Source: Oceanicoccus sp. KOV_DT_Chl (GTDB lineage Bacteria; Pseudomonadota; Gammaproteobacteria; Pseudomonadales; Dasaniaceae). From it: a DNA stretch of 64,000 nucleotides. The DNA lies in assembly GCF_900120175.1 (NCBI RefSeq), contig NZ_FQLF01000002.1, positions 682,001-746,000 on the forward strand, read 5' to 3'. The notes under the pieces were generated by a model, which worked only from the letters and a program-made list of their open reading frames with translations, ran no database searches and was not told where the DNA came from. Of the stretch, positions 3,523 to 64,000 are shown piece by piece (within the stretch, counting starts at the first letter, position 1; every line of letters begins with the position of its first letter). The position numbers were made by a program, and so were the translations under genes.

Positions 3523-3685
3523 GAAAGTAATACTCCATTGAATTAAATCTTATTATTAGTGATTTTGAATGCAGCAATACTACAGATTTCTTCTAAATAT
3601 TTCAGTAATAACATCTACAGATAATTAGTTGATGGACTACTAGTGCTGTACAATCAGACGTTATTATTCAATTCTCGAAACTTCC

Positions 3686-5040
3686 ATGCAAAAGAATCAA
3701 ATCAATCAAAAAGTCGGTTTTATCTCCCTCGGATGCCCCAAAGCTTTAGTAGACTCCGAGCGCATCCTCACCCAACTGAAACTCGACGGCTACGAAATCA
3801 GCCCCGACTACGATGGCGCCGATGTAGTGGTAGTTAACACCTGTGGCTTTATCGACTCTGCCAAACAGGAATCCATGGATGCGATCGCCGAGGCGATGAA
3901 AGAAAACGGCAAGGTGATTGTGACTGGCTGTATGGGAAAAGGCGCAGACGCTGAAGCCATCAAAGCGGCCAACCCCAATGTATTGAGCATTTCCGGTCCC
4001 GCCGATTACGATAGCGTGATGGGGGCTGTGCATGAGTTTATTCCCCGACCCAAGACAAAGACCACAAACCCTATCCCGACTTATTGCAAACGGCGGGCAT
4101 TAAACTCACGCCGCCGCATTACAGTTATTTGAAAATTTCAGAGGGCTGTAACCATCGCTGCACGTTTTGCATTATCCCTGCCATGCGTGGCGACCTGGTT
4201 AGCCGACCAATTGCAGATGTGGTTGCCGAAGCCAAGCAACTGGTCGCCAGCGGCACGAGAGAACTGTTAGTTATTTCCCAAGACACCAGCGCTTACGGCG
4301 TTGATGTAAAGTACAAACTGGATTTTGTTGAGGGCAAGGCCCTTGAAACCCGCATGCAGGATTTGGCTGTAGCCTTGGGCGAGCTCGGCGTGTGGGTGCG
4401 ATTGCACTATGTTTACCCCTACCCGCATGTGGATAAAGTGATTCCGTTAATGGCGGCAGGTAAAATTCTGCCGTACCTGGATATTCCATTTCAACACGCC
4501 AGCCCTAAAATTCTTAAACTGATGAAACGCCCTGGCAACCAGGAAAAAGTGTTAGAGCGCATCAAAGCCTGGCGAGAAATTTGTCCCGAGCTGGTGATTC
4601 GCTCAACCTTTGTAGTTGGCTTTCCCGGTGAAACCGAAGAAGATTTTCAATTGCTTTTGGATTGGTTAGAGCAAGCGCAACTGGACCGCGTTGGTTGTTT
4701 TAAATATTCACCGGTAGAAGGTGCTACCGCCAATGCCTTACCTGATCATGTGCCGGAAGACATTCAACAGCAACGCTGGGAACGCTTTATGGAAACCCAG
4801 CAGCGCATTTCCGCCCAGCGCTTGCAACAACGTATCGGCCAACAAATGGAAGTATTAATCGACGAAGTCGATGAGCAAGGCGCGATTGGTCGCTGCTATG
4901 CCGATGCTCCGGAAATTGATGGCAAAGTTTATCTGGACGGTTTTACTGACACCTTCGCCGGTGACGCTCTACTGGTCACTATCACTGACGCTGATGAATA
5001 TGATTTATGGGCCGAGCCAGTGTACGAAGATGACGAGTGA
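3686..5040 (+). CDS. rimO: Ribosomal protein S12 methylthiotransferase RimO, one frameshift
   Basis: Radical SAM enzyme that methylthiolates the conserved Asp of ribosomal protein S12. The N-terminal methylthiotransferase domain has its three cluster cysteines (C17 in [14 protein letters not shown]53 in NTCGFID, C82 in GCMGKG). The radical SAM motif CNHRCTFC follows, then HYVYPYPH-type sequence and a C-terminal TRAM domain. The frame breaks between about 4058 and 4072; the second half reads [19 protein letters not shown] one base later. One added base restores a protein of normal length. All catalytic residues are present, so a base-call error is likelier than loss. rsmE follows 8 bases after the stop. 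Confidence 0.93.
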
Positions 5041-7899: not shown

Positions 7900-9663
7900 A
7901 TGCACAAGCACAACAGTGCCAATATATTTACCAAGCACTTGGCTATCAGCACGTTAGTCGCTAGTAGCTTATTGACAACTCTACCCTCTTACGCCCAAGT
8001 TGGGGCTGTTAGCCCTGGTGCAGTTCAGCCGCAATTAGATCGCCCGCAACTGCCAACCACTGTTGAAACACCTGAATACACCGTTCCACCTGTCATCGAC
8101 CGCCCATTAGGTATCGAAGAAGGCCCAAGTATTGAGGTTAAACAATTTCATCTGCGTAGCGAAGACATGCAACCGCCAGAGATAGACCAGTCCGCTGTCA
8201 CCGCCATTCTCGATCGTCAACGTCAAGCTCACGCCGATGGCTTTACTATTGGCCAGCTGCAGCAAGTTGCTAATGAAGTTACCCAGTACTATCGGCAGCA
8301 GGGTTTTATATTGGCTCAAGCGTATATACCACAACAAAATGTGGAGAATGGCCTGGTAACCGTTAGTGTATTAACCGGTCGTTTGGGCGAGGTCACTTCG
8401 GAAAAGAATACCCACTTCTCGGACCAGCTGATGATTAAAGCACTGGACTTTCCTTCCGGTAGCGGCTTGCAGCAACAGCCCATGGAAACTGCACTGCTAC
8501 GTCTTAACGACTTACCCGGGCTTAAAGCCAGCGGTATTTTCCGCCCCGGCAGTAATATCGGTGAAGCCGATCTGATCTTGAATGTAGAGGAAGAAAACGT
8601 CTTTGATGGCTATGTACTAGCGGATAATTATGGCGTTGATTCAACCGGTAAAGAGCGCTTATTGGCTAACGCTAACTGGAACAACCCGACCGGTCGCGGT
8701 GACCGCTTAACGGTTACCGCATTACAGACCTTTGATCCTAGTGACTCCCTTTACGGCGGTTTTCGCTATGAAACACCATTGTTTAGCCGCGCCTTCACCT
8801 TAGGCGTGCAATACAACAATAATGATTACACCATCGGCCAGCAGGCTTTCAATATTCTGGAACTGGAAGGCGACACCGAGCAGACCTCAATTTATGGTCG
8901 TTACTCGATCGAGCGTTCTCGACTTGCCAATACATCCACTACCATTAGTCTGACACGCAAAAAAGCCGAACTGGAAACAGCCAACCAAGCTGTTGGCGAA
9001 GACAATCTTACTGTTTTAAAAGTGGCCTATAATTTTGATTCAACCGATACCAGTGGCATTCATCGCGCATCAATGGCTGTGAGTAAAGGCTTTGACGACT
9101 GGCTTGGCGCCATGGATGACGACGGCGATGACAATTCCCTGCGTATTGATAAAGATGGTAATTATGTCGGCGGCGACTTTGTTAAGCTCAATCTCAATTA
9201 CACCCGGTTACAGTCATTAGCAGCTAACCAATCGTTGCTAGTGCGTTTTGAAACCCAACAAACAAATGATGTATTAAGCTCATTGGAACAGTTTTCCATG
9301 GGCGGCCCCAACTCAGTAAGAGCCTACCCCGTCTCTGAATACATTCGCGACAGCGCGGTATTCACCAGTATTGAGTGGATAATAAATGCCCCCGGCTTTG
9401 CCAACACACCTGCCTTTGGTGGCCGCAATTGGGGTGAAATTTTAAAAGTTTCCCTATTTGCTGACTACGCCAACGGGGATTTAAATAATGCGCCTTCTGT
9501 TATAGAAGATGAAATTGAAATTTCTGGTGCAGGTATCAGTGTAGATTTACGCCTGGCCGATAGTTTTTTTGCGCGACTGGATGTAGCGACGCCATTAAGC
9601 AGCCGCGACGCCAGCAATGATGATGACCCACAAGTGTGGCTCACCACTGGCTTTAATTTTTAA
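7900..9663 (+). CDS. TpsB outer-membrane transporter (ShlB/FhaC/HecB family)
   Basis: Two-partner secretion pore that moves its partner TpsA across the outer membrane. After a signal peptide (MHKHNSANIFTKHLAIST to SYAQ) comes a proline-rich linker. A POTRA_2 domain follows (GFTIGQLQQVANEVTQYYRQQGFILAQAYIP, split around the central helix), then a 16-strand-type barrel. The motif GGPNSVRAYP matches the conserved VRGY/VRAY region of the barrel loop. The frame is open from 7822; I use ATG 7900 because the signal peptide begins there, but 7855 is possible. tpsA follows after 53 bases. Confidence 0.9.
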   Translation: MHKHNSANIFTKHLAISTLVASSLLTTLPSYAQVGAVSPGAVQPQLDRPQLPTTVETPEYTVPPVIDRPLGIEEGPSIEVKQFHLRSEDMQPPEIDQSAVTAILDRQRQAHADGFTIGQLQQVANEVTQYYRQQGFILAQAYIPQQNVENGLVTVSVLTGRLGEVTSEKNTHFSDQLMIKALDFPSGSGLQQQPMETALLRLNDLPGLKASGIFRPGSNIGEADLILNVEEENVFDGYVLADNYGVDSTGKERLLANANWNNPTGRGDRLTVTALQTFDPSDSLYGGFRYETPLFSRAFTLGVQYNNNDYTIGQQAFNILELEGDTEQTSIYGRYSIERSRLANTSTTISLTRKKAELETANQAVGEDNLTVLKVAYNFDSTDTSGIHRASMAVSKGFDDWLGAMDDDGDDNSLRIDKDGNYVGGDFVKLNLNYTRLQSLAANQSLLVRFETQQTNDVLSSLEQFSMGGPNSVRAYPVSEYIRDSAVFTSIEWIINAPGFANTPAFGGRNWGEILKVSLFADYANGDLNNAPSVIEDEIEISGAGISVDLRLADSFFARLDVATPLSSRDASNDDDPQVWLTTGFNF

Positions 9664-9716
9664 TCATAGATAAATAACGAAACCTATACGTTGTCGAAAG
9701 AGGGTAAGTAGTAGCA

Positions 9717-11462
9717 ATGAATCAGCACGCTAACAAAATGCAGTTATCTGCAGATGGTTCAACCACCAGCCAGGGTTTGATCGCTAGATCCAAACCTTTG
9801 CCATCCATGATTCGACAAACAACCGCTCTACTAGGAGTGATGGCTTTTGCCAGCCAGGTAATTGCTTTGCCGCAGGGCCCAAGTGGCCAGCAAAATATTC
9901 AAAGCATTGTGTCAGACGACACAACCCTCACCACGGTGACCCAAAATGCTGCAAACGCGATTGTAAACTGGACCAGTTACAACGTGGCAGACGGCCAAAC
10001 AGTACAATATGTGCGTGACGGCGGCGGCAACTTTGCCATTTTAAATCGTATCAACGACACCTCAGCCAGTACTATCAACGGCAACATCACCGCCGTTGGC
10101 GGTCAGGTCTTTTTACTTAACAGCAACGGTATGATTTTTGGCGAAACGGCGAATATAAATGTGGGTAGCCTGGTAGCCAGTAGTTTAGACATTGGTGACG
10201 CAGATTTTTTGGATGGTGCTAACTACACCATGCAAGCCAGCGGCGAAGGTGCGATCATTAATAACGGTAATATCAATGCGTCCAGCGCCGGTGTTGCTTT
10301 AGTAGGTAATAGCGTAGCCAATAATGGTGTCATTGTTGCCAATCTCGGTTCTGCTAACCTGATTTCGGGCACAGTGGCCACCCTAAGTTTCGATAACGGC
10401 TTAATGTCATTTGCAGTAAACACTGGCGTTAGCAGCAATAATGCAGGTGCTACTGATGCTATTGCGAATACTGGCAATATTTCTGCGCAGAGAGTTTTGC
10501 TAAATGCCATCGATGCAGCTGACGTATTCACTAATACGATAAATAATAACGGCATCATTACTGCGACTAAAATCAGTAATATCGGTGGCACCATCCGCCT
10601 GACAGGAACCGGCGATATAGTACTTGGCGAAAACTCCGCACTGACTGCTAATGGCGCGATCGCTATCCAATCAGCTGACGGCAATGTGACGAATGCGGGC
10701 TCGATTACTACTGATAATGCCGTTCAAATCAAAAGCGGTGGCGATATTATTAACCGCGGTGAAATCAGTGGCGACAAACTAGTTTCTCTGGACGCCGGTG
10801 GTGACATTGATCAGTTCGGTGCTATTACTACGGCAAAAGAAGTGATGAAAGCCGGCGGTAATATCGAGTTTGACGCCGATGGTGATGGAGTCGGTGATGA
10901 CAGCGATGCCTTCCCTAACGATCCCAATGAAAGCGTAGATACCGATGGTGATGGTGTTGGCGACAACAGTGATACCTTCCCTAACGACCCCACTGAAAGC
11001 GTAGACACAGATGGTGATGGTGTTGGCGACAATAGCGATGCCTTCCCTAATGACCCCACTGAAAGCGTAGACACAGATGGTGATGGTGTTGGCGACAATA
11101 GCGATGCCTTCCCTAATGATCCGACTCGATCAGAAGAGGAGCCTACTGAACCTGAAACACCTGCGCCAGAACCTGAAACTCCAGCACCTGAGCCTGAAAC
11201 ACCTGCGCCTGCGCCTGAACCTGAAACCCCAGCACCTGAACCTGAAACCCCAGCACCTGAGCCTGAAACGCCAGCGCCTGAGCCAGCACAAGTGCTACCT
11301 GAGTTTGACTCTACCCTCAATGCCAGCGCCAACACCGGCAATAGCCAGCAGGCTGCCATTGCAGGCACTAACAGCACCGCGCTAGGCTTATATGGTGTCG
11401 AAGGTACCGGTATCAAAATGCCAGCTGATCAACAGAGCGAAATGGAATTTATTAACAACTGA
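9717..11462 (+). CDS. Short TpsA exoprotein: haemagglutination (TPS) domain, Ca-binding repeats, Pro-rich tail
   Basis: Secreted partner of the TpsB encoded just upstream. AGAGGG precedes the ATG. A long signal region (to about residue 52) leads into a TPS domain with NFAILNRIN and NSNGMIFG (residues 135-142), matching the NPNG(I/L) hallmark. A short beta-helix runs to about 380. Residues 386-473 are four 22-residue repeats with the core DTDGDGVGDNSDAFPNDP, like thrombospondin type 3 calcium sites. An EPETPAP-type proline-rich stretch and a small C-terminal part follow. At 581 residues it is much shorter than usual TpsA adhesins. A strong terminator right after the stop shows it is not truncated. 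Confidence 0.88.
   Translation: MNQHANKMQLSADGSTTSQGLIARSKPLPSMIRQTTALLGVMAFASQVIALPQGPSGQQNIQSIVSDDTTLTTVTQNAANAIVNWTSYNVADGQTVQYVRDGGGNFAILNRINDTSASTINGNITAVGGQVFLLNSNGMIFGETANINVGSLVASSLDIGDADFLDGANYTMQASGEGAIINNGNINASSAGVALVGNSVANNGVIVANLGSANLISGTVATLSFDNGLMSFAVNTGVSSNNAGATDAIANTGNISAQRVLLNAIDAADVFTNTINNNGIITATKISNIGGTIRLTGTGDIVLGENSALTANGAIAIQSADGNVTNAGSITTDNAVQIKSGGDIINRGEISGDKLVSLDAGGDIDQFGAITTAKEVMKAGGNIEFDADGDGVGDDSDAFPNDPNESVDTDGDGVGDNSDTFPNDPTESVDTDGDGVGDNSDAFPNDPTESVDTDGDGVGDNSDAFPNDPTRSEEEPTEPETPAPEPETPAPEPETPAPAPEPETPAPEPETPAPEPETPAPEPAQVLPEFDSTLNASANTGNSQQAAIAGTNSTALGLYGVEGTGIKMPADQQSEMEFINN
10872..11135 (+). repeat. Four tandem 66-base coding repeats (calcium-binding type)
   Basis: Near-identical 66-base units encode DxDGDGVGDxSDxFPNDPxES. 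The last three are nearly identical in DNA; the first has drifted and the fourth degrades into the proline-rich segment. Such identity suggests recent copy-number change by slippage or unequal crossing-over. Confidence 0.9.
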
Positions 11463-12961: not shown

Positions 12962-13666
12962 ATGGCCGACGATAAACTTCCAGACAAAGCTGCTTCCCGC
13001 CAAGTACTCAGTGCGTTCCTTGATTCGGCCAGCCAACTACCGCAGCGGGTGGACAGTGATAGCCGCCAAACCGGCCGCCTGATTTTTGCCTTGGACGCGA
13101 CTGCCAGTCGTCAACCAAGCTGGGACCAGGCCTGCCAATTACAGAGTGAAATGTTTACTGCAACCGACAGCCTGGGCGGGCTGCAATTGCAGCTTTGTTA
13201 TTATCAGGGTTTCCATGAATTTCATTACAGCCCATGGCTAAGCGAAAGCCGGTCACTTCGGCGCACCATGAATGCGGTGCAATGTCTGGGCGGATACACA
13301 CAACTGGGACGAGTGTTAGAGCACAGTTTAAAACAACACAAGCAACAAGCGATTCAGGCGGTGATCATTATCGCCGACGCAATGGAAGAATCCGTAGATG
13401 TCTTATGCGACAAGGCCGGACAACTCGGATTGTTAGGCGTTCCCTTGTTTATGTTTCAGGAAGGTAATGATCCCGCAGTGCAACGCTGTTTTCAGCAAAT
13501 GGCCACCTTGAGCAAAGGTGCCTACGCCACGTTTGATGCGCACAGCGCGCAACAACTGGCACACATGCTGGCCGCCGTAGCGACTTATGCCAGTGGTGGG
13601 TTTACTGCGCTGCAACAGTTACAATCGTCGGCAGCACGACAACTACTCACCCAACTTAAGAGCTAA
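12962..13666 (+). CDS. VWA-like domain protein
   Basis: A 234-residue soluble protein with a von Willebrand A-like fold. LIFALDATASR gives DxTxS (D45, T47, S49), a variant of the metal-binding DxSxS. GGYTQLGRVLEHSL and VIIIADAMEES are the later strands and could supply the other metal ligands. There is no signal peptide. It lies 11 bases before a membrane J-domain gene, so the two probably act together, perhaps in chaperone-assisted assembly. Function inferred only from context. Confidence 0.72.
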   Translation: MADDKLPDKAASRQVLSAFLDSASQLPQRVDSDSRQTGRLIFALDATASRQPSWDQACQLQSEMFTATDSLGGLQLQLCYYQGFHEFHYSPWLSESRSLRRTMNAVQCLGGYTQLGRVLEHSLKQHKQQAIQAVIIIADAMEESVDVLCDKAGQLGLLGVPLFMFQEGNDPAVQRCFQQMATLSKGAYATFDAHSAQQLAHMLAAVATYASGGFTALQQLQSSAARQLLTQLKS

Positions 13667-13677
13667 GCCACCCGACC

Positions 13678-14406
13678 ATGATCGTTCGCCTGATTTTATT
13701 AATCGCCTTTGTAGTGGTGGTATTGACGCTGATTAACAAAGTCAAAAAAACACCCAAAGCGCAAATGAAAAAAGTGTACTGGAGCTATGGCTTGGGGGCC
13801 GCGGCGATTTTACTCATTCTATTGGCCGCCACCGGGCGTATCCACTGGATAGGGGCGATGATTGGTGCCGCCATCCCGTTAGCCAAACAGGCCCTGCCTT
13901 ATTTGATTCGGTATTTCCCCTACATTCAGCAACACCTGCGCAAACCGGCAGCCGCTAGCAGCAGTAACAATGGCAGCAATCAATCACAGGTGAAAACCGC
14001 TGTGTTAACCATGACCTTGAATCACGATACCCAACAGCTATCCGGTGAAGTCAACCAAGGGCCACTGGCCGGACAACAACTGGATGCACTGGAGTTATCG
14101 CAACTCCAGGCCTTGTTAGATTACTGTCATCAACAGGACAAAGACTCGGTTAAGTTATTGATGAGCTATCTCGACCACCGCTTTGGCAACCAGTGGCAAA
14201 GCCGCCCTCCGCCCAACAACTCCGGAGAAATGAATGAAGATAGCGCCTATGCCGTACTGGGGCTTCCCAAAGGCGCCAGCAAACAAGATGTGATTCAGGC
14301 TCATCGTAAAATGATGCAGAAAGTCCATCCTGACCGCGGCGGCAGTGATTATCTCGCCGCGCAAATCAATCAGGCCAAGGATCTCTTACTCAGTCGGCTT
14401 TCCTGA
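13678..14406 (+). CDS. Membrane-anchored J-domain protein (DnaJ/Tim14-like C-terminal J domain)
   Basis: The N-terminal 80 residues hold two transmembrane helices (MIVRLILLIAFVVVVLTLI, and a second at about 37-53). A low-complexity Ser/Asn linker and a conserved middle segment follow (LSGEVNQGPLAGQQLD). A J domain at about 190-242 has the HPD motif at 217-219 (KVHPDRGGSDYLAAQIN). The J domain being last, after a membrane anchor, resembles Pam18/Tim14 rather than DnaJ. It should recruit DnaK to the membrane. It appears co-transcribed with the VWA gene. Confidence 0.85.
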   Translation: MIVRLILLIAFVVVVLTLINKVKKTPKAQMKKVYWSYGLGAAAILLILLAATGRIHWIGAMIGAAIPLAKQALPYLIRYFPYIQQHLRKPAAASSSNNGSNQSQVKTAVLTMTLNHDTQQLSGEVNQGPLAGQQLDALELSQLQALLDYCHQQDKDSVKLLMSYLDHRFGNQWQSRPPPNNSGEMNEDSAYAVLGLPKGASKQDVIQAHRKMMQKVHPDRGGSDYLAAQINQAKDLLLSRLS

Positions 14407-14482
14407 GTTTGTGCTAGCCTGCCCCAATAAATCACGTTAAAATCTTCGCGGTAATTTCAGCAACAACGGGTATTTTTTACAG

Positions 14483-14799
14483 ATGAGTAAAGTTTTTGTC
14501 GTTCAAAATCAAGACGGTTATTTTGCCACCAAACACAAGGATTGGGAGTGCGGCCGCGACCCTAAACTATTATTTCGTAGCCCCACCGCGATGAAGCTAT
14601 AAACCTGGTATTTGAACTGAGTTCTAAAGATATCTATCTACGAGCGGAAGCAATCAGCGTTGACATGGATGAGAAAAAAAATCCCATCGTCGAAGTCACC
14701 GCAGCGCCTAAACCCAAACCAGAATTGGTCGCTGAAGTCACTGGTGATGAGCCGCAGGCTGAAGACAGTGAAACGAATAGCGAAGCTCTGGCTGACTAG
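14483..14799 (+). CDS. Small conserved-looking protein, one frameshift
   Basis: The frame starts MSKVFVVQNQDGYFATKHK and stops early at 14600. If a fifth C is added to the CCCC at 14581-14584 it continues as RSPHRDEAINLVFELSSKD and on to a stop at 14797-14799, giving about 105 residues. The tail is acidic and rich in Ala, Glu and Pro. I recall similar short proteins in pseudomonads but cannot name a function. It sits alone between the J-domain gene and htpX. Confidence 0.65.
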
Positions 14800-14940
14800 C
14801 CCCCGCAATCGCTTAGGGCAGGCGCTACTGCCCTTACTCCTTAAGCTCTTGAAACTTATTTCCCTCACCCCCATCTAATAGCCAGCTTTATCCGTATCAA
14901 TGGTTGAACGGATAGCTCACTACAAAAGGTACTGCACATC

Positions 14941-15828
14941 ATGCTACGCATCGGTTTATTTTTGATTACCAATATGGCGATTTTATTGGTTGCCAGCATT
15001 ACCCTCAGCTTGCTCGGCTTTAACTCAATTATGGCGTCAAACGGCATCGACCTGAATTTATCAGCGCTGCTGGTGTTCTGCGCGGTATTCGGTATGGGCG
15101 GATCGTTGATTTCGCTAATGCTCTCCAAGTGGATGGCTAAACGCAGTATGGGGGTCAAGCTCATTGAGCAACCTGGCAACAGGCAGGAACAATGGCTGGT
15201 CGATACTGTTGCCGAACTGGCACAAAAAGCCGGTATTGGTATGCCTGAAGTGGGTATCTTCCCCTCGCCACAGGCCAATGCTTTTGCCACTGGCTCTAAC
15301 CGTAACAAAGCACTGGTAGCCGTCAGCGCCGGCCTGCTTGACCGCTTTACACCTGAAGAAGCAAAAGCCGTCATGGCCCATGAAATTGGCCACGTCGCCA
15401 ATGGCGATATGATTACGCTGACCCTGATTCAGGGTGTGGTGAACACCTTTGTTATGTTCTTCGCCCGTATTATCGGCCACGCCTTTGATCGCATCGTGCT
15501 AAAAAACGAGCGTGGTTTTGGCATCGGTGCCTGGGTTGCCACCATGGTGGCTGAAGTGATTTTAGGTATCCTCGCCTCCACTATCGTGTTCTGGTTTTCT
15601 CGCTGGCGGGAATATCGCGCCGATGATGCCGGCGCCACCCTAGCCAGCCGCAGCGGCATGATTGCCGCACTGCAAAGGCTGCGCAGTGAACAAGGTCTGC
15701 CTAGCGATATGCCCGGAGAAATGACCGCCTTTGGTATTAACGGCGAATTGAAAGAAGGTTTAGCAGCATTGTTTTTAACCCATCCGCCGCTAGAAAAACG
15801 TATTAGCGCATTACAAAACAAAGCCTAA
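14941..15828 (+). CDS. htpX: Membrane zinc metalloprotease HtpX
   Basis: Heat-shock protease of family M48 that degrades misfolded inner-membrane proteins. Two N-terminal membrane helices are visible (residues about 4-26 and 40-60). The zinc site HEIGH is at 147-151, two more hydrophobic segments follow, and the third ligand region is YRADDAGA. The 295-residue length is usual. The ATG at 14941 follows a short gap with no strong ribosome site. Neighbouring genes do not suggest an operon. Confidence 0.95.
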
Positions 15829-53839: not shown

Positions 53840-55105
53840 TTATTTACGGCACATATTCTCGATTAAATCAGCATATTGATTTCCTATAGTCTGCCAATCA
53901 AACCGCGCCAAAACAGAAGCACGTGAAGCCGCTTGTAAGCGAGCTTTTAAATCCTGATCAGCTAACAATCTATTTAACGTTTGTCGCAAACTCGCTTGAT
54001 TAGAAGACTGAAAGAGCAATCCGTCTACGCCATCAGTAACGACATCAGCCACCACAGGTAAATCTGCAACCACAACAGCGCAACCACAAGCCATCGCCTC
54101 TACAGTCGTCAAACCCAAGCCCTCCTGATCACCATCGTTAGCTATTTCAAATGGCATCACTGCGATATCAGCCGCATATAAATAATCAGCTATCAGTGTA
54201 TTGTGAACTGCCCCAAGAAATTCAACCTTTGTATCAAGGTTTAATTTTCTACATAAATCAACAAGCAAAGGCATTAACGGCCCATCACCAATAATTTTGA
54301 GGCTCCAATCATCCCTGCCCAGCTCAGCCAATGCCTTCAACAGAGTTGCGACACCTTTCTTATCTACCAGCCGGCCAACAAAAATCATGGCATTGCTAGC
54401 ACGTAAAACTGGCTGCTTAATGGAAAAACGCCCGGCTATATCCACCCCCATTGGCAATACTGATAGTTTATTAGCTTCAATACCTAGCTGGTTTATACAA
54501 TAGCTTTGCATTGGACTACTCACCACGGTTATATGATCTGCATTATTAAGAACCCAACATTTTAATTTCACTAATAAATTGCTTTTTAAACTATACAAAT
54601 CACCACCGTGGGCAGTAATCAGTATTTTCTCTTTTGCTTTGAAAATCTTCTTATAGATAACAGCTACCAAGCCTTGAGGTATTATCCAATGAGCATGCAG
54701 GAGATCGATATTGCTATTTCTAGTCATCTTACTCAGCGCAAGCAGCTGCCCTGCCAACAACAAAGGAACTAGCAATAAACGCCATGGTTTTTCCTTTATA
54801 TTGGCATTAATACCGGCACCATAGCAAAGCTGCTCTAGACCTTTAAAAAAATATCGATAATAAACGACCTTCACCAGACCAACATCAGTATCAACATGTT
54901 TATTCATTAGCGAAGATGATGGAGCGAGAACGTTCACATTAATATTTTCTGCTAGACGAAGACAAAGGCTCTGAATAAAATCAGGCTGACAATCCTCTGG
55001 ACTCAAAGGATATGTTGTCGTCATTTCAACTATAGAAACCGACCCAATTTTTCTCTTACTCTTTTCCAACAAAAAAACCTCGAAAAAACTCTGCAATAAT
55101 TCCAA
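53840..55105 (-). CDS. Glycosyltransferase family 4, last gene of the polysaccharide cluster
   Basis: GT-B-fold retaining glycosyltransferase, about 420 residues. LITAHGGDLYSLKSNLLVKL, FVGRLVDKKGVATLLKAL and EGLGLTTVEAMACGCAVVVAD (the EX7E motif) mark it. The start is uncertain; TTG 55105 keeps the first Rossmann strand (SIVEMTTTYP), while ATG 55024 would cut it. Donor and acceptor sugars are unknown. Confidence 0.88.
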   Translation of the reverse strand: MELLQSFFEVFLLEKSKRKIGSVSIVEMTTTYPLSPEDCQPDFIQSLCLRLAENINVNVLAPSSSLMNKHVDTDVGLVKVVYYRYFFKGLEQLCYGAGINANIKEKPWRLLLVPLLLAGQLLALSKMTRNSNIDLLHAHWIIPQGLVAVIYKKIFKAKEKILITAHGGDLYSLKSNLLVKLKCWVLNNADHITVVSSPMQSYCINQLGIEANKLSVLPMGVDIAGRFSIKQPVLRASNAMIFVGRLVDKKGVATLLKALAELGRDDWSLKIIGDGPLMPLLVDLCRKLNLDTKVEFLGAVHNTLIADYLYAADIAVMPFEIANDGDQEGLGLTTVEAMACGCAVVVADLPVVADVVTDGVDGLLFQSSNQASLRQTLNRLLADQDLKARLQAASRASVLARFDWQTIGNQYADLIENMCRK

Positions 55106-55163: not shown

Positions 55164-56237
55164 TCAATTAGCTTTTGTTAGCAAAGACTCCAAACACCTC
55201 ACCTGTTCATCCCAGCCAGAGCCTTTACTCTGCACAGAATAGGGCCGAGTAATAAAAGCCTCTAGCTGCTGCTGCAACGCTTCACTACTACCTGCTGCAA
55301 ATAATGCCTCAGGGTAATCCTCCAGCACATATTTCGTGGAAGCTGTCGCACTTGCCAGCACCGGCGTACCCGAGGCTAAAGCCTCATAAATCTTTACCGG
55401 ATAACTGTAATTACCAAAGCTACTATCTTCATTTACTGCAACCAGAACATCTAAACTGCGAAACACATCTACCATACTCTTGTCTTCGAGATAACCTAAC
55501 CAATGTGTATTTTCCGGCACATTCAATTCAAGATTCTTTCTGCCAGTTAACACAAAATCAACCGCTGGGTTCCTGGCGGCCAGCGAATGGAAAGCCTCAA
55601 ATAAAACGCTAATACCTCGACTGGAAAATATACTGCCGCAATACCCTATTAATACTTTATCCTTAGGCAGCCGCAAGTGCTCGCGCGCAGCATGCTTATT
55701 TCCAGCACAAAACATCGGGTCCGCAGCCATCGCTATCACTTGTGCATTATCAGCATCACGTGGTCGATCTACTGAAATTTTATCTAGCAAACCAGGGCCT
55801 GCGGCAGTGAGTGCAGACGCACGTTTTAACGCCCGCCGCCAAAGCCAATGCAATGGTTTTAACCAAGGTATGTAGCTTTCATAATTATCGTAAGCATCTA
55901 TTAAAGAACGAGCGCCAACACTACCCGCGACACTAACAGCACAAATACCAAAATAGGTATCGGAAAAGCCTAGCAGCCAATCCGTATGAGCTTCTTCTGC
56001 AAGCGTTTTAACAAAAGAATAATAAGCAAGAGGGTTCGGCAATAAATTGACCGAGTGCCAGATAATCCCGTCACGCTGTTGCGTAAACTCAATTTGTCGC
56101 TTGTAATTAAGCAATACTAAATGAACTTCATGACCCGCCTCGGCCAAACCCTTGGCCAAATTAAAGAATCGACCATAAGGACGTTCCCATAAATCACGGG
56201 ACAGAGGGCTGCGCTTGGACAAACAGATAATTCTCAC
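55164..56237 (-). CDS. Glycosyltransferase family 4-like
   Basis: A 357-residue GT-B-type protein. The N-terminal part reads RPYGRFFNLAKGLAEAGHEV, the C-terminal donor part has LIGYCGSIFSSRGISVLFEA and YSYPVKIYEALASGTPVLAS. The start is 3 bases after the stop of the preceding gene, so the two are probably translated together. Sugar specificity unknown. Confidence 0.87.
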   Translation of the reverse strand: MRIICLSKRSPLSRDLWERPYGRFFNLAKGLAEAGHEVHLVLLNYKRQIEFTQQRDGIIWHSVNLLPNPLAYYSFVKTLAEEAHTDWLLGFSDTYFGICAVSVAGSVGARSLIDAYDNYESYIPWLKPLHWLWRRALKRASALTAAGPGLLDKISVDRPRDADNAQVIAMAADPMFCAGNKHAAREHLRLPKDKVLIGYCGSIFSSRGISVLFEAFHSLAARNPAVDFVLTGRKNLELNVPENTHWLGYLEDKSMVDVFRSLDVLVAVNEDSSFGNYSYPVKIYEALASGTPVLASATASTKYVLEDYPEALFAAGSSEALQQQLEAFITRPYSVQSKGSGWDEQVRCLESLLTKAN

Positions 56238-56240
56238 TGA

Positions 56241-57514
56241 TTAACCGTCAATTACACAGCTTTCAAACAGATTCAAATACTGTTCAACAACCGCATCAGC
56301 ACTATATTTTTGCTCTACGCTTTTTCTTGCCTGCTCACCCAATTGAGAACGCGTTGCTTCTTCAAGCGTCCAAGCAATTTCGCTAGCCAACGACGCTGCA
56401 GAAAAACACTCTGCCAAAGCCCCATTATGATGATGCTCAATCATATCGGGGAAGCCACCGGTATTGAAAGCCACACACGGCGTACCGCAGGCCATCGCCT
56501 CCATTACTGTATTCGGCAGATTATCTTGTAATGAAGGTGCTACAAAGATATCTGCCGCGGAATAAACCAGCGCCATGGTCAGTTCATCATTAAAAGTCCC
56601 AAGATAATGTACAGGCAGTGAAAACTCACTCGCCTCCGATGGCTGAGTGGCACCAACAATTAATAATTCAACATCATCAGCTTGAAGCGTTAAACGATTA
56701 AGGGCAGTTAAAAGCTGTGAAAAACCTTTACGTTCATCCGCTGTGCTCGATAATGCACCAAACAACAAGTAACGCTTTTCTAAAGATAAGCCTAATAGAT
56801 TTCTAGCAATTTTTTATCGATGGGTCGAAATAATTCAAGATCAATACAGTTAGGAATAGATCGCACCTTATGATTACGCAGTAAAGCACTCTGCTCTACA
56901 CACTGCGCTAGCCACACACTGGGCGTCACAAAATTAAACGGCTTTTTACTCCAGTGTTTGAATTTACGTTGCCAAACCCAGCGATCAAGGTCAAATCTTC
57001 CCCGGTGAGATTGGGAAGCCGGGTATCCCGCCTTATAGCGTTCTGGCTGGGCAAGGTCATCATAATGTTCAGCCCCACAAAAAGCCCACATATCATGCAA
57101 CGTCCAGACAATTGGGTGGTGAATTTTAGCTATTTCAGCAACCGACATCATTTCCCGGTTGATCCAATGCAGGTTGACTACATCCACATCCATCGCATTA
57201 ATTTTCTTATGTAAACCACTAGGAAAAATATTGTAGGAATGTAAATTACGATTAACTGCATCATGCAACCAGTGCAGGGGTAAACTTAAATAATTCCTCA
57301 AATCTGCCCATGTATTAGCAGGATTGGAATCGGGCCCCAGTACAGAATAATCACCGCTCATTTTTTTAGCTACCAGCATTTGGGATTGCACACCACGCTG
57401 AAGTAAAGCCCGGTGTAAACGATAGGCAGCGCGAGCAGCCCCGCCATGAACATCCGCCTGTGACACCACCAAAACTTTTAAATCAACTGCTTTCATCTGA
57501 ATATTTATTCTCAA
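56241..57514 (-). CDS. Glycosyltransferase family 4, one frameshift
   Basis: The N-terminal half (57514 to about 56815) has the WbaZ/colanic-type start VLVVSQADVHGGAARAAYRL, then LHWINREMMS, LHDMWAFCGAEHY and PNCIDLELFRP. It then stops. In the next frame ARNLLGLSLEKRYLLFGAL and VMEAMACGTPCVAFNTGG complete the donor domain. Adding one base to the six-T run (plus strand) at 56810-56815 joins them into about 424 residues. The start may be ATG 57496. Confidence 0.87.
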
Positions 57515-57581: not shown

Positions 57582-59969
57582 TCACCCGGCCTTTACCTGT
57601 AAGCGTAATAAGGCCTGCTGAAAATCACTACTAAAGTCTTTTTCTAGTGGTATAACTGGAGAGGGATTTATACCACTGAGCATGGCTTTAAGTTCATCTG
57701 CTATATTTTGTGCGGTAATTTCTTCAAGTGACAAATGAGGAATTTTCATTCGCTTAGCCAAAGTACTGACTTTACCTTGGCCCAAGGTATAATCAAGAAC
57801 CAATACCGGGCTTTGCATTTCTATAGCAAAAACCATAGAGTGAAATCGCATAGCCAACACGGCATCAGCGCCAGCAAATAAAGTGCAGGCTTGTTGGGGC
57901 TCAACCTCGTGGGTCAAATAAAAAGTATCAAGACAATCTTTAAAGCTATCAACCAGCGGATTATTTCCGGAAAATAAACGCCGATAATACCAGCGATCAT
58001 CACCACCATGATGATTAGTACACATTGGAAAAGGAATAATTCGCAACTTCGGATCATCCTTTACCAATAGACCTAATGCAAGCAACAACTGCTCTTCATA
58101 TTGTTTCTTTAATACCCGCGCCTGCTGCTCTGAATAATTGGAATACTGCTGATGAGGCCATTCCCTAAGACCAAGTATCAAATATTTTTCACCGGTATCA
58201 ACCTTGTTCACAGCGGACTTTCGGGATCTCAGCCACACATGCGCAGGATCTTCAGTAACAATATCATCACGGGTATTAACGCCTAGCGCTGCGGCAGCGG
58301 CTTTTGATTTTTCATCACGATATAAACGTATGGATGACAACGAAAGAATACGCTCAATATATCGGTTATGTAATTTGCTGCCCAAGGGACCAACGCCACA
58401 CCCCGATAAAATTGTAGGCACCTGCGCACAAGCCGCGCGCTGAAACAATGCCAACATATCCAATATGGCATTCACCGCCATCAATGGACCGCCTCCAAAT
58501 AACAACAAATCCATCTGAGATACTTGAGTTAGGGCCTCTTGCAAATGGATTACCTTAATGCCTGACAACTCCGGCATTTGCTGGCAGGTAAAATCAGATA
58601 TATAAGGATCTAAACTTACCAGGCATATCTCAACATCCGGCAATGTTTGACACAGGCTGTGCACAACCCCACCAAGAATCGCTTTATCTCCCAGCGTCTC
58701 TGTACCGTACCATCCACAAATCATCACTTGTCTGGGTTCATCTTTGGAAAGCAGTGAAAATGTCTGTGCGGGTTTTGGATCAACCTTATCTAAGCCATAG
58801 TTCTTTTGCTGCTTTAATAATTTCGCTTGCCGTAGCACCTGACCTATTGGCACCAGTGCCTCGCCTTTAATAAATTTTCGCAAGGGCAACCCTAGTCGAT
58901 CAGCCACCTCGATCGTACACTGTTTTAAAAATTCATTTCCTGGCGGAATGCCACCGTAATCGTGTTTACAATTATCACATTTACTCTGCAGTATTTCGTG
59001 TAAGTGTGGCGCATTAGAAAAATACAGTTGCGAGCTATCTTGATCGATGACACTTCCCAGCACATCACTTTCAACAGCGCAGTACATAAGTTCACCACGC
59101 GCAGAGAGGGTAATACCACGATGCTGCCAGTTACACCCTGCCTTACGTGGCTCTTGGTACATGATCTGATCAATAAGCGAACGATAAAAGAAACGCTGGG
59201 GCTCTGACTCCTCATATTCCTGAATCAAATTCTCCAGAAAAATACATAAATCGTATTTCTCTTGAAAATTAAGCGCAAATGGCTCGGTGACATTGTCGGT
59301 ATACAATCGCTGGTGTGGCACCGCCAAGCGATACTTGATATGCACATCTTGGGCAATCGCGTAATCAAGTAAATCATACAGTCCGTAGACATTATCTTTA
59401 ATAACAGTACATGCCAATTGATAGCTTGCAACCGCACGGGAATGTTTAGCATGCGCCAGAACTTTCTCGGCATTTTCAAAATTTCCTGGCCTGCCACGCA
59501 CCAAGTCATGCACATCACCCACACCATCCAAAGAAATCATCACATCCAGATTCCCAGCGTAACGCTGCGCCATTTCACCTACAGCATCGATACTGGCTAT
59601 GACTTTTTTAGACACCAGCGCATTTGTAATCAAGCTGATGGTTTTTAACTGCGGGAGATTTTTATAGAGCACCTCAACCAACTCAGGCAAATCTTTCCTT
59701 AAGGTTGGCTCACCACCATTGAGCCCGACACTTCGAACATCGGTAAATAAATCATTCTTTAAGGCATCGGAAAGCTGCTCAACACTTATCTGGGTATCAA
59801 GTTTTTGCTTCCATATTTCACACATTTGACAGCGGGCATTACAGATATCATTCACCGGAAATTGAATGACACGGGGCTTCACCAAAGGCCATGGCTTGGA
59901 CTGATAAGAACGAACAATATCTTCGACGGCATTAATAATTGAACGCACATCTATCTCCGTAACTGGCAA
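57582..59969 (-). CDS. Radical SAM / polysaccharide pyruvyl transferase fusion protein
   Basis: A 795-residue two-domain protein. Residues 1 to about 350 are a radical SAM domain with the cluster motif CNARCQMC (C43, C47, C50), VGLNGGEPTLRKDL and SLDGVGDVHDLVRG. A cysteine-rich, SPASM-like end follows (C279, C297, C331, C334, C351). A linker of about 60 residues leads to a polysaccharide pyruvyl transferase domain (about 413-795). This has a CsaB/WcaK-type start ICGWYGTETLGDKAILGG and the ending GADAVLAMRFHSMVFAIEM. It should modify a sugar of the surface polymer. Which reaction the radical domain does, and whether both halves share a substrate, is not known. No signal peptide, so cytosolic. 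Confidence 0.9.
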   Translation of the reverse strand: MPVTEIDVRSIINAVEDIVRSYQSKPWPLVKPRVIQFPVNDICNARCQMCEIWKQKLDTQISVEQLSDALKNDLFTDVRSVGLNGGEPTLRKDLPELVEVLYKNLPQLKTISLITNALVSKKVIASIDAVGEMAQRYAGNLDVMISLDGVGDVHDLVRGRPGNFENAEKVLAHAKHSRAVASYQLACTVIKDNVYGLYDLLDYAIAQDVHIKYRLAVPHQRLYTDNVTEPFALNFQEKYDLCIFLENLIQEYEESEPQRFFYRSLIDQIMYQEPRKAGCNWQHRGITLSARGELMYCAVESDVLGSVIDQDSSQLYFSNAPHLHEILQSKCDNCKHDYGGIPPGNEFLKQCTIEVADRLGLPLRKFIKGEALVPIGQVLRQAKLLKQQKNYGLDKVDPKPAQTFSLLSKDEPRQVMICGWYGTETLGDKAILGGVVHSLCQTLPDVEICLVSLDPYISDFTCQQMPELSGIKVIHLQEALTQVSQMDLLLFGGGPLMAVNAILDMLALFQRAACAQVPTILSGCGVGPLGSKLHNRYIERILSLSSIRLYRDEKSKAAAAALGVNTRDDIVTEDPAHVWLRSRKSAVNKVDTGEKYLILGLREWPHQQYSNYSEQQARVLKKQYEEQLLLALGLLVKDDPKLRIIPFPMCTNHHGGDDRWYYRRLFSGNNPLVDSFKDCLDTFYLTHEVEPQQACTLFAGADAVLAMRFHSMVFAIEMQSPVLVLDYTLGQGKVSTLAKRMKIPHLSLEEITAQNIADELKAMLSGINPSPVIPLEKDFSSDFQQALLRLQVKAG

Positions 59970-60068: not shown

Positions 60069-61385
60069 CTAAGGAGCTTTAGGTAAATAACTCTTTAAAT
60101 ATCCTATTAAGCCTTGCAAAAAAAGCGCTCTTGTTTTCATAAAAAACAAAGGCCGCATTGCAGCATTAAACAGATCGAATAAATAAAATGCGACAAACAG
60201 TGATATTACTGTCGCCATTGCCGCTCCAATTCCTCCATAAAGTGGTATTAGCACTAGATTTAACAGCACATTACATACTGTACCCAGCAGCATCCTGTAC
60301 AAAGACAATATAATTTTACCTTCAGCAAAAATCCATGAGCCGGAACACAAACCTATTGCTACAGCAGGAAGACACCAGATATAAATCATTAAAATACTAG
60401 CAGCTTCGACATATTGTTCCCCAAAAAGTGTCTCGATCAATACAGGAGCAAGTAACATTGTAGGCAATACAATGGCATAACTCATCGCCGCTAATATTAA
60501 GAATAGATTCTGCAAGCTCTGCATATAATCATGTTCTGATGTCGCTCTAACGGCAATAATAGCGGGAAAGGTTGTACTAACAATTGCAGCAGGAATAAAG
60601 TACCAGGCGTCAGATAATCTTGCCGCAGTAGCGAACACCCCCACCGCTTTAATACCCACCATCTCCTCTAGCATCAGCTGATCTAAACGCATACAAAGCA
60701 TTGTACCTACTCCTGCCACAACTTCAGGCCAACATTCTGCGATCATTTTTTTGCTAGCTGCAACACTAAACTGACCGAATAACAGCTTATGATGTGCATG
60801 CCTATAGGCAATCAGCGCAAACAACCCCACCAGCATTAACTCACCACTAATAACTGCTGCAAAATATAGAAGGTCAGCTTCTAAAAATACTAGTACCAGA
60901 TTTACAGCTGACGCCGTAACAAAGGCAATGCTTTTGTAGATTGTGGAATACTTGGCCGCGACCTGTGACTGAAAAAAGAACTCAATGACATCGAATGCAC
61001 GAAACAGGCTACCAATAGCAAGAACCACTATAAGCAACCGGGCCTCGGGCGGCCCCACCCCCAACACCAGGCTAACAACAAGCAACAATAAAAAACAAAC
61101 TACTGCCACAAAAAGTTTACAAACAAAAACTGACGCTATGATTTCATCACGCTTCTCAGGAAACCTGACCAGATCCCGAACTAACATCCGGTTTAAACCT
61201 AATGCAATTAGCGGCTCGGTTACTGCCACCAGTACAACTGCAAAATTAAGCAAACCAAATTTTTCAGGACCCAAGTAGCGCGCTATATATGCAAAAAGAA
61301 AAATGCCTATAGTGATTCGAGCAACTTTCTCGGCCAACAGCCAGAGAGTGTTATTCAAATAGGGTCTTATTCGTTCGATTTTCAA
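60069..61385 (-). CDS. Wzx-like polysaccharide flippase (MOP superfamily)
   Basis: A 438-residue protein with 12 or so membrane helices. FLFAYIARYLGPEKFGLLNF is the usual N-terminal signature of the Wzx/RfbX family. It should flip lipid-linked oligosaccharide units across the inner membrane. A Wzy polymerase and an initiating transferase are not seen here and may lie beyond the right edge. Confidence 0.92.
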   Translation of the reverse strand: MKIERIRPYLNNTLWLLAEKVARITIGIFLFAYIARYLGPEKFGLLNFAVVLVAVTEPLIALGLNRMLVRDLVRFPEKRDEIIASVFVCKLFVAVVCFLLLLVVSLVLGVGPPEARLLIVVLAIGSLFRAFDVIEFFFQSQVAAKYSTIYKSIAFVTASAVNLVLVFLEADLLYFAAVISGELMLVGLFALIAYRHAHHKLLFGQFSVAASKKMIAECWPEVVAGVGTMLCMRLDQLMLEEMVGIKAVGVFATAARLSDAWYFIPAAIVSTTFPAIIAVRATSEHDYMQSLQNLFLILAAMSYAIVLPTMLLAPVLIETLFGEQYVEAASILMIYIWCLPAVAIGLCSGSWIFAEGKIILSLYRMLLGTVCNVLLNLVLIPLYGGIGAAMATVISLFVAFYLFDLFNAAMRPLFFMKTRALFLQGLIGYLKSYLPKAP

Positions 61386-61503: not shown

Positions 61504-62364
61504 CTACGCATTCTTTTCTTCATCCTTATAGAGAAGAGTCGTTATTTGTTCAGAGACCAGCCCCATTAAAAAAACCAGCATTGCACTAATAAAAAGCAGC
61601 GCGCTCATATTAGTAAACCGCCCCATCGTAGTGTAGGTATATCCGTAATAACAAACACCTGTTATAAAAAACATTATCGATATGGGGAAGAATATTTTTA
61701 ATGGCGAATACAATGTTCCAACCTTAAATATTATTAGCAAAAACTTGGTTCCATCTCTAAGCAAATTAATATGACTCGAACCTAAACGCTTTTCAGCTTC
61801 GATCGGAATATACTTGACCGTAAAGCCAGCTCTAAAAAAGCTCATAGTAATGGTTGTTGGGTAAGAAAACCCATTAGGCAACATATAAATAAATTGCAGA
61901 AATTTATCTTTACGCACCGCTCTAAAGCCTGAAGTCAGGTCTTCTACTTTATGCCCTACCATAAAGGTAGCAAGGCGATTATAAATTTTATTGCCTGCCA
62001 AACGGCTAACACTGGCTTGCGAACCATCATTACGAGCCCCAACAACCATATCGTAGCCCTTATCAAACTCTGCCAATAAGCGAGGGATATCATTCGGTTT
62101 ATGCTGCCCATCACCATCCATAAAAACAATGACGTCGCCAGTCGCTTTTTTAGCACCTGATTTAATAGCTGCACCATTACCCTTGCTATAGGGATGCCGC
62201 ACCTCAACAACCTCGCAGGTCTCACAAACCGCCGAGGTATTATCATCCGAGCCATCATTAACTACGATGAGCTCAGCCATGGGCATGGCCACTTTTATAG
62301 CCGGCAAAAGTACTAGCAATGATTCAGCTTCATTTTTTGCAGGTATTACAACAGACACTTTCAT
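61504..62364 (-). CDS. Glycosyltransferase family 2 (dolichol-phosphate-mannose synthase-like)
   Basis: A 286-residue GT-A enzyme with two C-terminal membrane helices. The N-terminus reads VSVVIPAKNEAESLLVLLP, the metal site is FMDGDGQHKPND (DxD-like), and VEDLTSGFRAVRKDKFLQF follows. Such enzymes move a sugar to a polyprenyl phosphate. It could supply a lipid-linked sugar for the cluster. Confidence 0.9.
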   Translation of the reverse strand: MKVSVVIPAKNEAESLLVLLPAIKVAMPMAELIVVNDGSDDNTSAVCETCEVVEVRHPYSKGNGAAIKSGAKKATGDVIVFMDGDGQHKPNDIPRLLAEFDKGYDMVVGARNDGSQASVSRLAGNKIYNRLATFMVGHKVEDLTSGFRAVRKDKFLQFIYMLPNGFSYPTTITMSFFRAGFTVKYIPIEAEKRLGSSHINLLRDGTKFLLIIFKVGTLYSPLKIFFPISIMFFITGVCYYGYTYTTMGRFTNMSALLFISAMLVFLMGLVSEQITTLLYKDEEKNA

Positions 62365-62410: not shown

Positions 62411-64000
62411 TCACTCACCGCAGCAGTTGTTAATCTGTAGCGATAAACGCTCAATATCCTCTAAATATTTATCATTAGCAAAGCCTTTTATAATGGCTAA
62501 ATATTCCCTGGCCTCATCAACTTCTTGTGAATGAAGAGCCAAATCTGCTAAAGCTATATAACCTTTAGCATTAGGCGATATCGCCATTGCTTGCAGCAAC
62601 AACTGTTTACTTTCTGCTGAACGCCCACGCTCGAACTCAAAAATTCCGTAGCCGCTTAACACATTCGAGCGCGCCCAATTACTCAAGGACTGATTATCCA
62701 AAACATTCAAAAATATGGCCTCAACCACATCAGCCTTAGCATAACAATCGCTATTACGATAACAAACAACCAGCTGGCTAAGATAGCTATCAGTACTCAC
62801 CCTATACGTATTACTCTTCAAACGCTTTAATAGCTCTGCCATTATTTGCGGTGAAAACATCTCATTATAACGAGAATGAAACACTAATAACCCCAAGTAG
62901 GATGCCACATAATCTGCATCTGCCTTGGCGGCCAGATTGGCACGTTTAAGCGCCTGCTGATATAAACTTGCGGCTTCTGCCGCGCGCCCAGCTAGAATTT
63001 CTACCTCACAGGCTTGCAGATATAACATCCCCAACTCCCATTGTGATCGCGCAGAATCAGGGTGCCTTGCTGCATCTGCCTGCATCTGTCCTGCCGCTGT
63101 TGACCATTCTGCCGCACGGAGAAATGTCATACTCGCAGTAAACATTAACAACGGCAGCGCAATCAGAATAACCCGTTGAGATGTTATTAAATTCCTTTTA
63201 AGTAACTCGGCTACAAGCATTACAACGATTAAAACAATCCCTACCGAGGGCAAATAGTTCCTATGCTCATACATAATTTCCAACGGTATAAAACTTGATT
63301 CAAGGCTATGCCCGATAATAAAAAAACTGATGCCAAAGCCAAGCCAGACAAACTTTTTCCTGCAAACTATCGCAGCCAAGACTAACAACGCTAAACCAAC
63401 AATTGAAATCACAGTAGAAACAGGCTTAAACAACTCCGTAGAAAATCTAAAATCATCATGATGCAAGCTATACTGACTAATATTAGGTATCACAATCCAG
63501 TTCAAATATGACCAAAGCACTCTTGGCTCGGTAAGCAAACGCTCGTATTGAGTAAACTGACGCATTTGGTAACCATCAACAAACCATGACTTAACAAATT
63601 GCAGGTAATACAGGATCACTAATACGGCAGCACCAGTTACAATCCAAAAAAACTGCCGGTAACGCTTTTCACGTAGTGATGTAGGCTGATCATTAAAGAA
63701 GTAGTATTCGATGAGAACAAAAAATACCGGCATTAGTATTGCATTTTCTTTACTTAATACGCCAAGCGCTAAACAGCTGGCGATCAAAACAGGGGACAAC
63801 CACTGCCTCTTGCCTGGACTTTCTAACTGCTGCCGCCAGCGGATATAACAAACCAACCCTAACAGCGTGAACATCCCTGACAATAAGGTCATCCTTTGAA
63901 CCACATAAAAAATAGTTGATATATGTAGCGGATGGATAGCCCAGAGCAAACCCACACTAAACGCCAATAATGTTATACGTTTCGGAGTAAGCCATTCATT
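62411..64000 (-). CDS. Multi-span membrane protein with TPR repeats (TMTC/Wzy-like), N-terminus beyond window
   Basis: The frame is open through base 64000, so the N-terminus is missing. About eight hydrophobic helices are seen. The first loop has HPLHISTIFYVVQRMTLLSG, like the HPLHxExVxxxxxR loop of TMTC-type and PMT-clan membrane glycosyltransferases. The C-terminal 230 residues are TPR-like helices (LGMLYLQACEVEILAGRAAE, LLVFHSRYN). It may transfer or polymerise sugars on the outer face of the membrane. The call rests on pattern likeness. Confidence 0.75.
   Translation of the reverse strand, partial: NEWLTPKRITLLAFSVGLLWAIHPLHISTIFYVVQRMTLLSGMFTLLGLVCYIRWRQQLESPGKRQWLSPVLIASCLALGVLSKENAILMPVFFVLIEYYFFNDQPTSLREKRYRQFFWIVTGAAVLVILYYLQFVKSWFVDGYQMRQFTQYERLLTEPRVLWSYLNWIVIPNISQYSLHHDDFRFSTELFKPVSTVISIVGLALLVLAAIVCRKKFVWLGFGISFFIIGHSLESSFIPLEIMYEHRNYLPSVGIVLIVVMLVAELLKRNLITSQRVILIALPLLMFTASMTFLRAAEWSTAAGQMQADAARHPDSARSQWELGMLYLQACEVEILAGRAAEAASLYQQALKRANLAAKADADYVASYLGLLVFHSRYNEMFSPQIMAELLKRLKSNTYRVSTDSYLSQLVVCYRNSDCYAKADVVEAIFLNVLDNQSLSNWARSNVLSGYGIFEFERGRSAESKQLLLQAMAISPNAKGYIALADLALHSQEVDEAREYLAIIKGFANDKYLEDIERLSLQINNCCGE

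Follow-up and report, generated by a model that had tools for sequence, protein, structure and literature searches.

One protein of 795 residues, encoded in the 64,000-nucleotide stretch of Oceanicoccus sp. KOV_DT_Chl DNA analysed here (the window), joins a radical SAM core and twitch domain to a polysaccharide pyruvyltransferase domain, and the fusion is genuine, is rare and occurs sporadically in several phyla. Judged from its sequence, the protein may be a bifunctional glycan-tailoring enzyme which would modify a lipid-linked saccharide ahead of its export; for its radical step, an oxidation of the BtrN kind is the likeliest. We put the probability of this reading at about 50%. Both component families are known; the joined enzyme is what is new. 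As the initial annotation had supposed, no description of the fusion was found in the open-licence literature, a scope mostly exclusive of subscription papers and preprints, and the words 'fusion', 'fused' and 'radical' are absent from the main text of a 2019 review of pyruvate on glycoconjugates (PMC6801904). The gene, its parts and its glycan-cluster neighbours are located in the window as follows.

57582..59969, minus strand: radical SAM (twitch)/polysaccharide pyruvyltransferase fusion, 795 aa (Pfam and homologues)
58935..59888, minus strand: radical SAM core and twitch domain, residues 28-345, with C43, C47, C50 and C279, C297, C331, C334
58734..58934, minus strand: linker without conservation, residues 346-412, 0 of 67 positions invariant in seven fusions
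57585..58733, minus strand: pyruvyltransferase domain, residues 413-795, with GWYGTET motif and R551, R708, H710, K733
56792..57514, minus strand: companion GT4 glycosyltransferase, N-terminal half of a split gene (Pfam, comparison)
56241..56768, minus strand: companion GT4 glycosyltransferase, C-terminal half, in another frame (Pfam, comparison)
60069..61385, minus strand: Wzx-type polysaccharide flippase, directly upstream of the fusion (Pfam)
55164..56237, minus strand: further cluster glycosyltransferase (Pfam)
53840..55105, minus strand: GT4-type cluster glycosyltransferase (Pfam)
61504..62364, minus strand: GT2 cluster glycosyltransferase (Pfam)

The coordinates, strand and length first assigned to this two-domain protein were exact. 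Its reading frame starts with TTG, has zero internal stops and is intact in the assembled source genome at the matching position; the start codon is uncertain, as no ATG lies upstream of the radical SAM motif. Both domains scored above their Pfam cut-offs. The PF04055 match at residues 39-176 (46.9 bits against 29.5) and the CxxxCxxC motif of C43, C47 and C50, which is invariant in all seven fusions, bear out the complete radical SAM core that had been proposed. The PF04230 match at residues 426-727 (68.4 bits against 25.3) spans positions 2-278 of the 280 in the profile, as expected of the full pyruvyltransferase domain claimed earlier; the domain is conserved, and PF04230 matched in all five fusions scanned.

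Named genome contigs were scanned with two patterns from the radical SAM half, an approach blind to transferase-only kin; it yielded 79 candidate stretches and 15 loci encoding a relative, among them 4 full-length fusions. Identity to the window fusion was 50% for a Desulfobacterales MAG, 46% for a Bacteroidia MAG, 45% for Zooshikella harenae and 33% for a Caldilineales MAG; Zooshikella harenae was the sole named isolate among the carriers. Genome searches added one fusion from the phylum of the Bacteroidia MAG (G1201) and one from the phylum of the window (G1456). Seven intact fusions of 749-805 aa, including that of the window, are thus at hand, hosted by Pseudomonadota, Bacteroidota, the Desulfobacterales MAG and the Caldilineales MAG. 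The initial annotation had asked whether the fusion might be common, and across the genome sets scanned the pairing proved rare; these sets overlap, and the class- and phylum-level counts are lower bounds, since no more than the two to four top candidates of each genome were scored. A full-length fusion was present in 2 of 95 relatives, namely the source genome and G079, whose protein is that of Zooshikella letter for letter, and in none of six same-genus genomes, where G004 had a weak radical SAM-only match. The class-level set contained it in at least 1 of 369 genomes (the source genome); at E<=1e-15 this set also gave partial matches, with G417 hit in the transferase half alone and four genomes in the radical SAM half alone. 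By phylum, the fusion was found in at least 2 of 398 genomes for the window (own and G1456), at least 2 of 247 for the Bacteroidia MAG (seed and G1201), at least 1 of 297 for the Desulfobacterales MAG (the seed, with three radical SAM-only matches besides) and at least 1 of 301 for the Caldilineales MAG (the seed itself). Only the seeds themselves carried it among 87 relatives of G1201 and 90 relatives of G1456. Fourteen plasmid records match part of the fusion protein and none of them covers 80% of it, and scans of viral contigs with a few short patterns each returned no relative.

Zooshikella belongs to the same order as the window, yet its radical SAM half (53.5% identity to that of the window) is less similar than those of two MAGs of other groups, the Desulfobacterales (62.9%) and the Bacteroidia MAG (57.2%). 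Since this sporadic distribution is at odds with species relations, we read it as probable horizontal spread of the fusion; binning errors are possible for single MAGs, but hardly for all. The trees of both halves, which have long outgroup branches and moderate supports of 82-95, are compatible: each has a group of window, Desulfobacterales and Zooshikella, followed by the Bacteroidia MAG. The radical SAM tree adds G1201 to this group and pairs the Caldilineales MAG with G1456, and the transferase tree leaves the placement of G1201, Caldilineales and G1456 without resolution. As judged from both trees, the fusions are one family whose halves descended together. Across the seven fusions, 56 of the 318 positions of the radical SAM half are invariant, as are 48 of the 383 of the transferase half; the better conservation of the radical SAM half indicates that it is under selection.

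The G417 relative is a protein of 655 aa (2433-4400 of locus L054, also 574-2541 of L017) with a GWYGTET transferase half, preceded by about 300 residues which contain none of the seven cysteines of the fusions. This N-terminal part is possibly a decayed radical SAM domain; an hhalign comparison of profiles did not support this (probability 0.2%, E 0.35), and the multiple alignment contained only scattered matches of 13-17% identity. The transferase can thus persist without radical chemistry. No companion GT4 of the family seen beside the fusions was found in the locus of this relative.

The setting in a glycan cluster, noted at the outset, is borne out by the flippase and glycosyltransferase neighbours, and the conservation of neighbourhood that had been suggested as a check was indeed found. 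An orthologous GT4 gene accompanies the fusion in six of the seven loci. It directly adjoins the fusion in the window (as a split gene), Desulfobacterales, Zooshikella, Caldilineales and G1201 loci, and one methyltransferase-like gene lies between the two in G1456; within about 8 kb of the seventh fusion (L024), glycan genes are absent by eye. With the Desulfobacterales GT4 as query, the companions scored E 2e-108 to 9e-39, against 3e-12 for the best of the remaining cluster glycosyltransferases. Genes for a flippase or an ABC exporter are frequent neighbours too. The flippase is directly upstream of the fusion in the window, Desulfobacterales and Caldilineales loci, two genes away in Zooshikella and four genes away in G1201, and the five flippases tested (window, L022, L023, L025, L057) all matched polysaccharide-flippase Pfam families; in G1456, ABC-exporter-like genes were seen by eye upstream of the fusion. 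The frame of the window GT4 is broken next to a short A run in the stretch 56741-56860, and the companion is undivided in the five other loci (406-424 aa). About 11 kb from this break, the pilB gene of the same assembly (13381-15089 of locus L056, outside the window), a single gene in relatives, also changes frame, near position 13674. A second break makes sequencing error a more likely cause of the broken GT4 than it would otherwise be, and the two breaks together hint at errors in the assembly. The GT4 break may also be real, with the fusion module inactive in the window strain.

Taken together, it is quite probable, as far as the sequences tell, that both halves act on a glycan; a point to the contrary is that SkfB, the best match of the radical SAM half in a PDB profile search, modifies a peptide. 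At the cytoplasmic face of the membrane, a lipid-linked saccharide would receive a sugar from the GT4. The radical SAM half would cleave SAM reductively, and the resulting 5'-deoxyadenosyl radical would abstract a hydrogen atom from a sugar carbon; the auxiliary cluster would accept the second electron, for a net oxidation as in BtrN. The C-terminal half would place a PEP-derived pyruvate ketal onto the same or a neighbouring sugar, and the flippase or ABC exporter would then carry the product outward. A lipid-linked substrate is proposed by analogy, because the acceptor assayed for CsaB was ManNAc-GlcNAc on a lipid diphosphate (passages of PMC10435577).

That both halves act on the same sugar has, in our estimate, slightly less than an even chance. 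They could instead work on separate residues of one glycan, having been joined for co-expression or for a shared membrane location, which we regard as rather unlikely. The lack of any invariant position in the linker would suit such an arrangement, and so would a G417 relative that retains the transferase without the cysteines, but the joint descent of the halves over several phyla suggests a shared acceptor, and the single companion GT4 suggests one common acceptor.

The tail of the radical SAM half follows the pattern C279-x12-G292-x4-C297 ... C331-x2-C334, with cysteines and glycine invariant in all seven fusions, and beyond the seven presumed ligands of the clusters no further cysteine is invariant. 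This tail had been called SPASM-like and is more exactly a twitch domain: SPASM domains have a seven-cysteine C-terminal motif and two auxiliary clusters, only four tail cysteines are invariant here, and SPASM families were absent among Pfam matches at E<=0.1 in the five fusions scanned, so that the SPASM assignment was dropped. A twitch domain is a shortened SPASM domain with one auxiliary cluster (passages of PMC6231123 and PMC9012708), and the tail has its order of cysteine, hairpin, cysteine, helix and paired cysteines, with putative cluster binding; BtrN and SkfB are described with this same anatomy. The beta-hairpin (residues 285-288/293-296) between the tail cysteines, followed by the helix and CxxC, was seen in structure models of middling confidence (mean pLDDT 73.5, and 68.9 for the radical SAM half alone). 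Similarity of this half to curated NCBIfam families was far below cut-off and none of those shown was reached, including N_Twi_rSAM (NF033640, 62.6 bits against 170) and the PTO1314 family (TIGR03961, 77.9 bits against 306.05); PHROGs matches were to generic radical SAM families only.

Among solved proteins, the radical SAM profile reached SkfB best, then BlsE (two sequences) and 8wm2, which is AbmM; the BlsE and AbmM matches are limited to the core, at profile positions 14-145 and 10-78 of 373. AbmM has a role on a sugar. Both proteins belong to other pathways and have no transferase domain, BlsE being a cytosylglucuronate decarboxylase. For the full-length model, the best 50 of 1422 Foldseek matches fit the transferase half, and the radical SAM half was therefore modelled alone. 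This domain model has the barrel fold (best E 1.4e-7, TM about 0.5, at its mean pLDDT of 68.9), and its matches include anSME, SuiB, MoaA, TigE, EpeE, viperin, AbmM and DesII. The seven best were chains of anSME, a peptide-modifying enzyme, and the matches of the model point to no particular reaction.

BtrN resembles the fusion in its CxxxCxxC core and four-cysteine twitch auxiliary-cluster site, and performs a two-electron oxidation, that of a secondary alcohol, on an aminocyclitol (passages of PMC9012708 and PMC6231123). It differs as an antibiotic enzyme with a single domain pair and no transferase, and the likeness is one of cysteine set, with no family-level sequence relation to the fusion shown. 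SkfB is alike in the spacing of its auxiliary site, Cx33CxC against Cx33CxxC in the fusion, and different as a twitch sactisynthase on a ribosomal peptide with a peptide-binding domain, a domain not seen in the fusion. In the crystal structure of SkfB the fourth conserved cysteine is not a cluster ligand (passages of PMC9012708 and PMC6231123), so four cysteines in the fusion do not prove full ligation. The four-cysteine auxiliary site suggests that a two-electron oxidation would suit the protein better than an epimerisation, and for oxidation as the radical step we would tentatively give odds not quite even.

Less probable still, and unlikely in our view, is a redox-neutral step, by which the radical SAM half would be a sugar epimerase or catalyse an isomerisation or dehydration. 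Glycan clusters frequently need rare sugars, and the radical SAM epimerase EpeE is among the Foldseek matches, as C223A structures. Radical SAM epimerases of this type use a cysteine. Epimerisation, one of the examples offered in the initial annotation, is disfavoured because the fusions contain no eighth invariant cysteine as hydrogen donor. Redox-neutral twitch enzymes do exist, such as MoaA (passages of PMC9012708 and PMC6231123), but the auxiliary cluster of MoaA has an open site, in contrast to the four ligand cysteines of the fusion, a difference which is not decisive given SkfB.

The pyruvyl half of the proposed oxidising and pyruvylating enzyme shares with CsaB the GGG motif, a PEP site of Arg, Arg-x-His and Lys, a modelled fold which we take to be GT-B-like and the glycan-cluster setting; it differs from CsaB by its place behind a radical SAM half and by a score below the CsaB cut-off. 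R551, R708, H710 and K733 align with the matching residues of an annotated archaeal CsaB and are identical in eight sequences, the seven fusions and the G417 relative. Of the counterpart residues in P. alvei CsaB, three (R148, H308 and K328) have proved critical to the binding of PEP, and docking assigned R306 to the PEP site (passages of PMC10435577); this numbering was tied to the fusion by motif, the alignment having been made with the archaeal CsaB. Y14 and F16 of the P. alvei enzyme, tested for acceptor binding (passages of PMC10435577), match Y421 and T423 by motif, and only the tyrosine is kept. As the PEP-site residues are kept and the F16 position is changed, PEP use is probably retained and the acceptor probably different from that of CsaB. 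A PDB sequence search with the transferase profile returned nothing at E<=0.01, and the best 50 of the 1422 Foldseek matches of the full-length model were mostly UDP-GlcNAc 2-epimerases. It is improbable that the C-terminal half has lost pyruvyltransferase activity and merely binds glycan for the radical SAM half. Such a binding module would account for the faster divergence of the transferase half (27.7% identity from window to L057, against 50.3% for the radical SAM half), for the T at the F16 position in all eight sequences and for the score below the cut-off of the CsaB equivalog TIGR03609 (99.4 against 213.1 bits), but the four PEP-site residues are unchanged throughout and the PF04230 score is well above its cut-off.

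An artefact, in which two genes were merged by a frameshift or missed stop as the initial annotation had cautioned, has practically no chance despite the frame breaks in the nearby GT4 and pilB genes, as it is refuted by seven intact fusions in different genomes and by the absence of any two-gene version from 40 stand-alone radical SAM loci. The loci represent 32 distinct places and, with overlaps counted, 318,659 bases; many had no more than 1-2 kb of flanking sequence. They were searched with tblastn and a profile of the transferase half.

The glycan cluster of the window lies between nadC (window 53809) and a pilA-pilB-pilC-pilD set (pilA at 12676 of L056), of which pilA and the pilB ATPase were identified by Pfam and the others by eye. 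We looked for nadC in eight genomes, seven of which gave a match, and read six neighbourhoods. G001, G004, G008 and G009 have nadC and pilus genes together, glycan genes being absent by eye, and three of these four have a gene for a membrane-protein-like product of 242-258 aa at this locus. G005 has a different gene set from nadC to pilB, with a GT2 (59%) and a TPR-membrane gene (38%) in common with the window. The fusion island of Zooshikella also adjoins nadC. These variable contents of the nadC-pilin locus indicate that, in the lineage of the window, the fusion is carried as cargo by a glycan island which varies between genomes. Two related membrane/TPR proteins of about 650 aa are encoded between the glycan genes and pilA (8412-10379 and 10407-12353 of L056, the first partly in the window at 62411-64000); neither has a Pfam family above cut-off, and they might be glycan transferases of the island.

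With all parts combined, a horizontally spread module of fusion and GT4 might serve a surface or pilus glycan, one sugar of which would be radically oxidised and pyruvylated by one protein on a lipid-linked intermediate. This would be the first radical SAM chemistry linked to polysaccharide pyruvylation, and the odds are somewhat against the scheme as a whole. If both halves act on one residue, the product would be an undescribed sugar of bacterial surfaces. Radical SAM genes occur in exopolysaccharide clusters without an assigned role, and the covalent link of one such protein to an enzyme whose reaction and acceptor type are known (for CsaB, a lipid-linked saccharide) makes its substrate guessable. 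The fusion could help to explain three stand-alone radical SAM genes seen by eye in such clusters (L049 7062-8132, L051 7281-8390, L052 7589-8728), two of which adjoin a flippase-like gene. Stand-alone proteins such as those of L049 and L051 are radical SAM relatives with glycan genes nearby by eye, and differ from the fusion in being unfused. Another glycan/radical SAM fusion was found at L004 457-2523 (G036), where a frame of 688 aa contains, by eye, a GT2 glycosyltransferase and a radical SAM domain.
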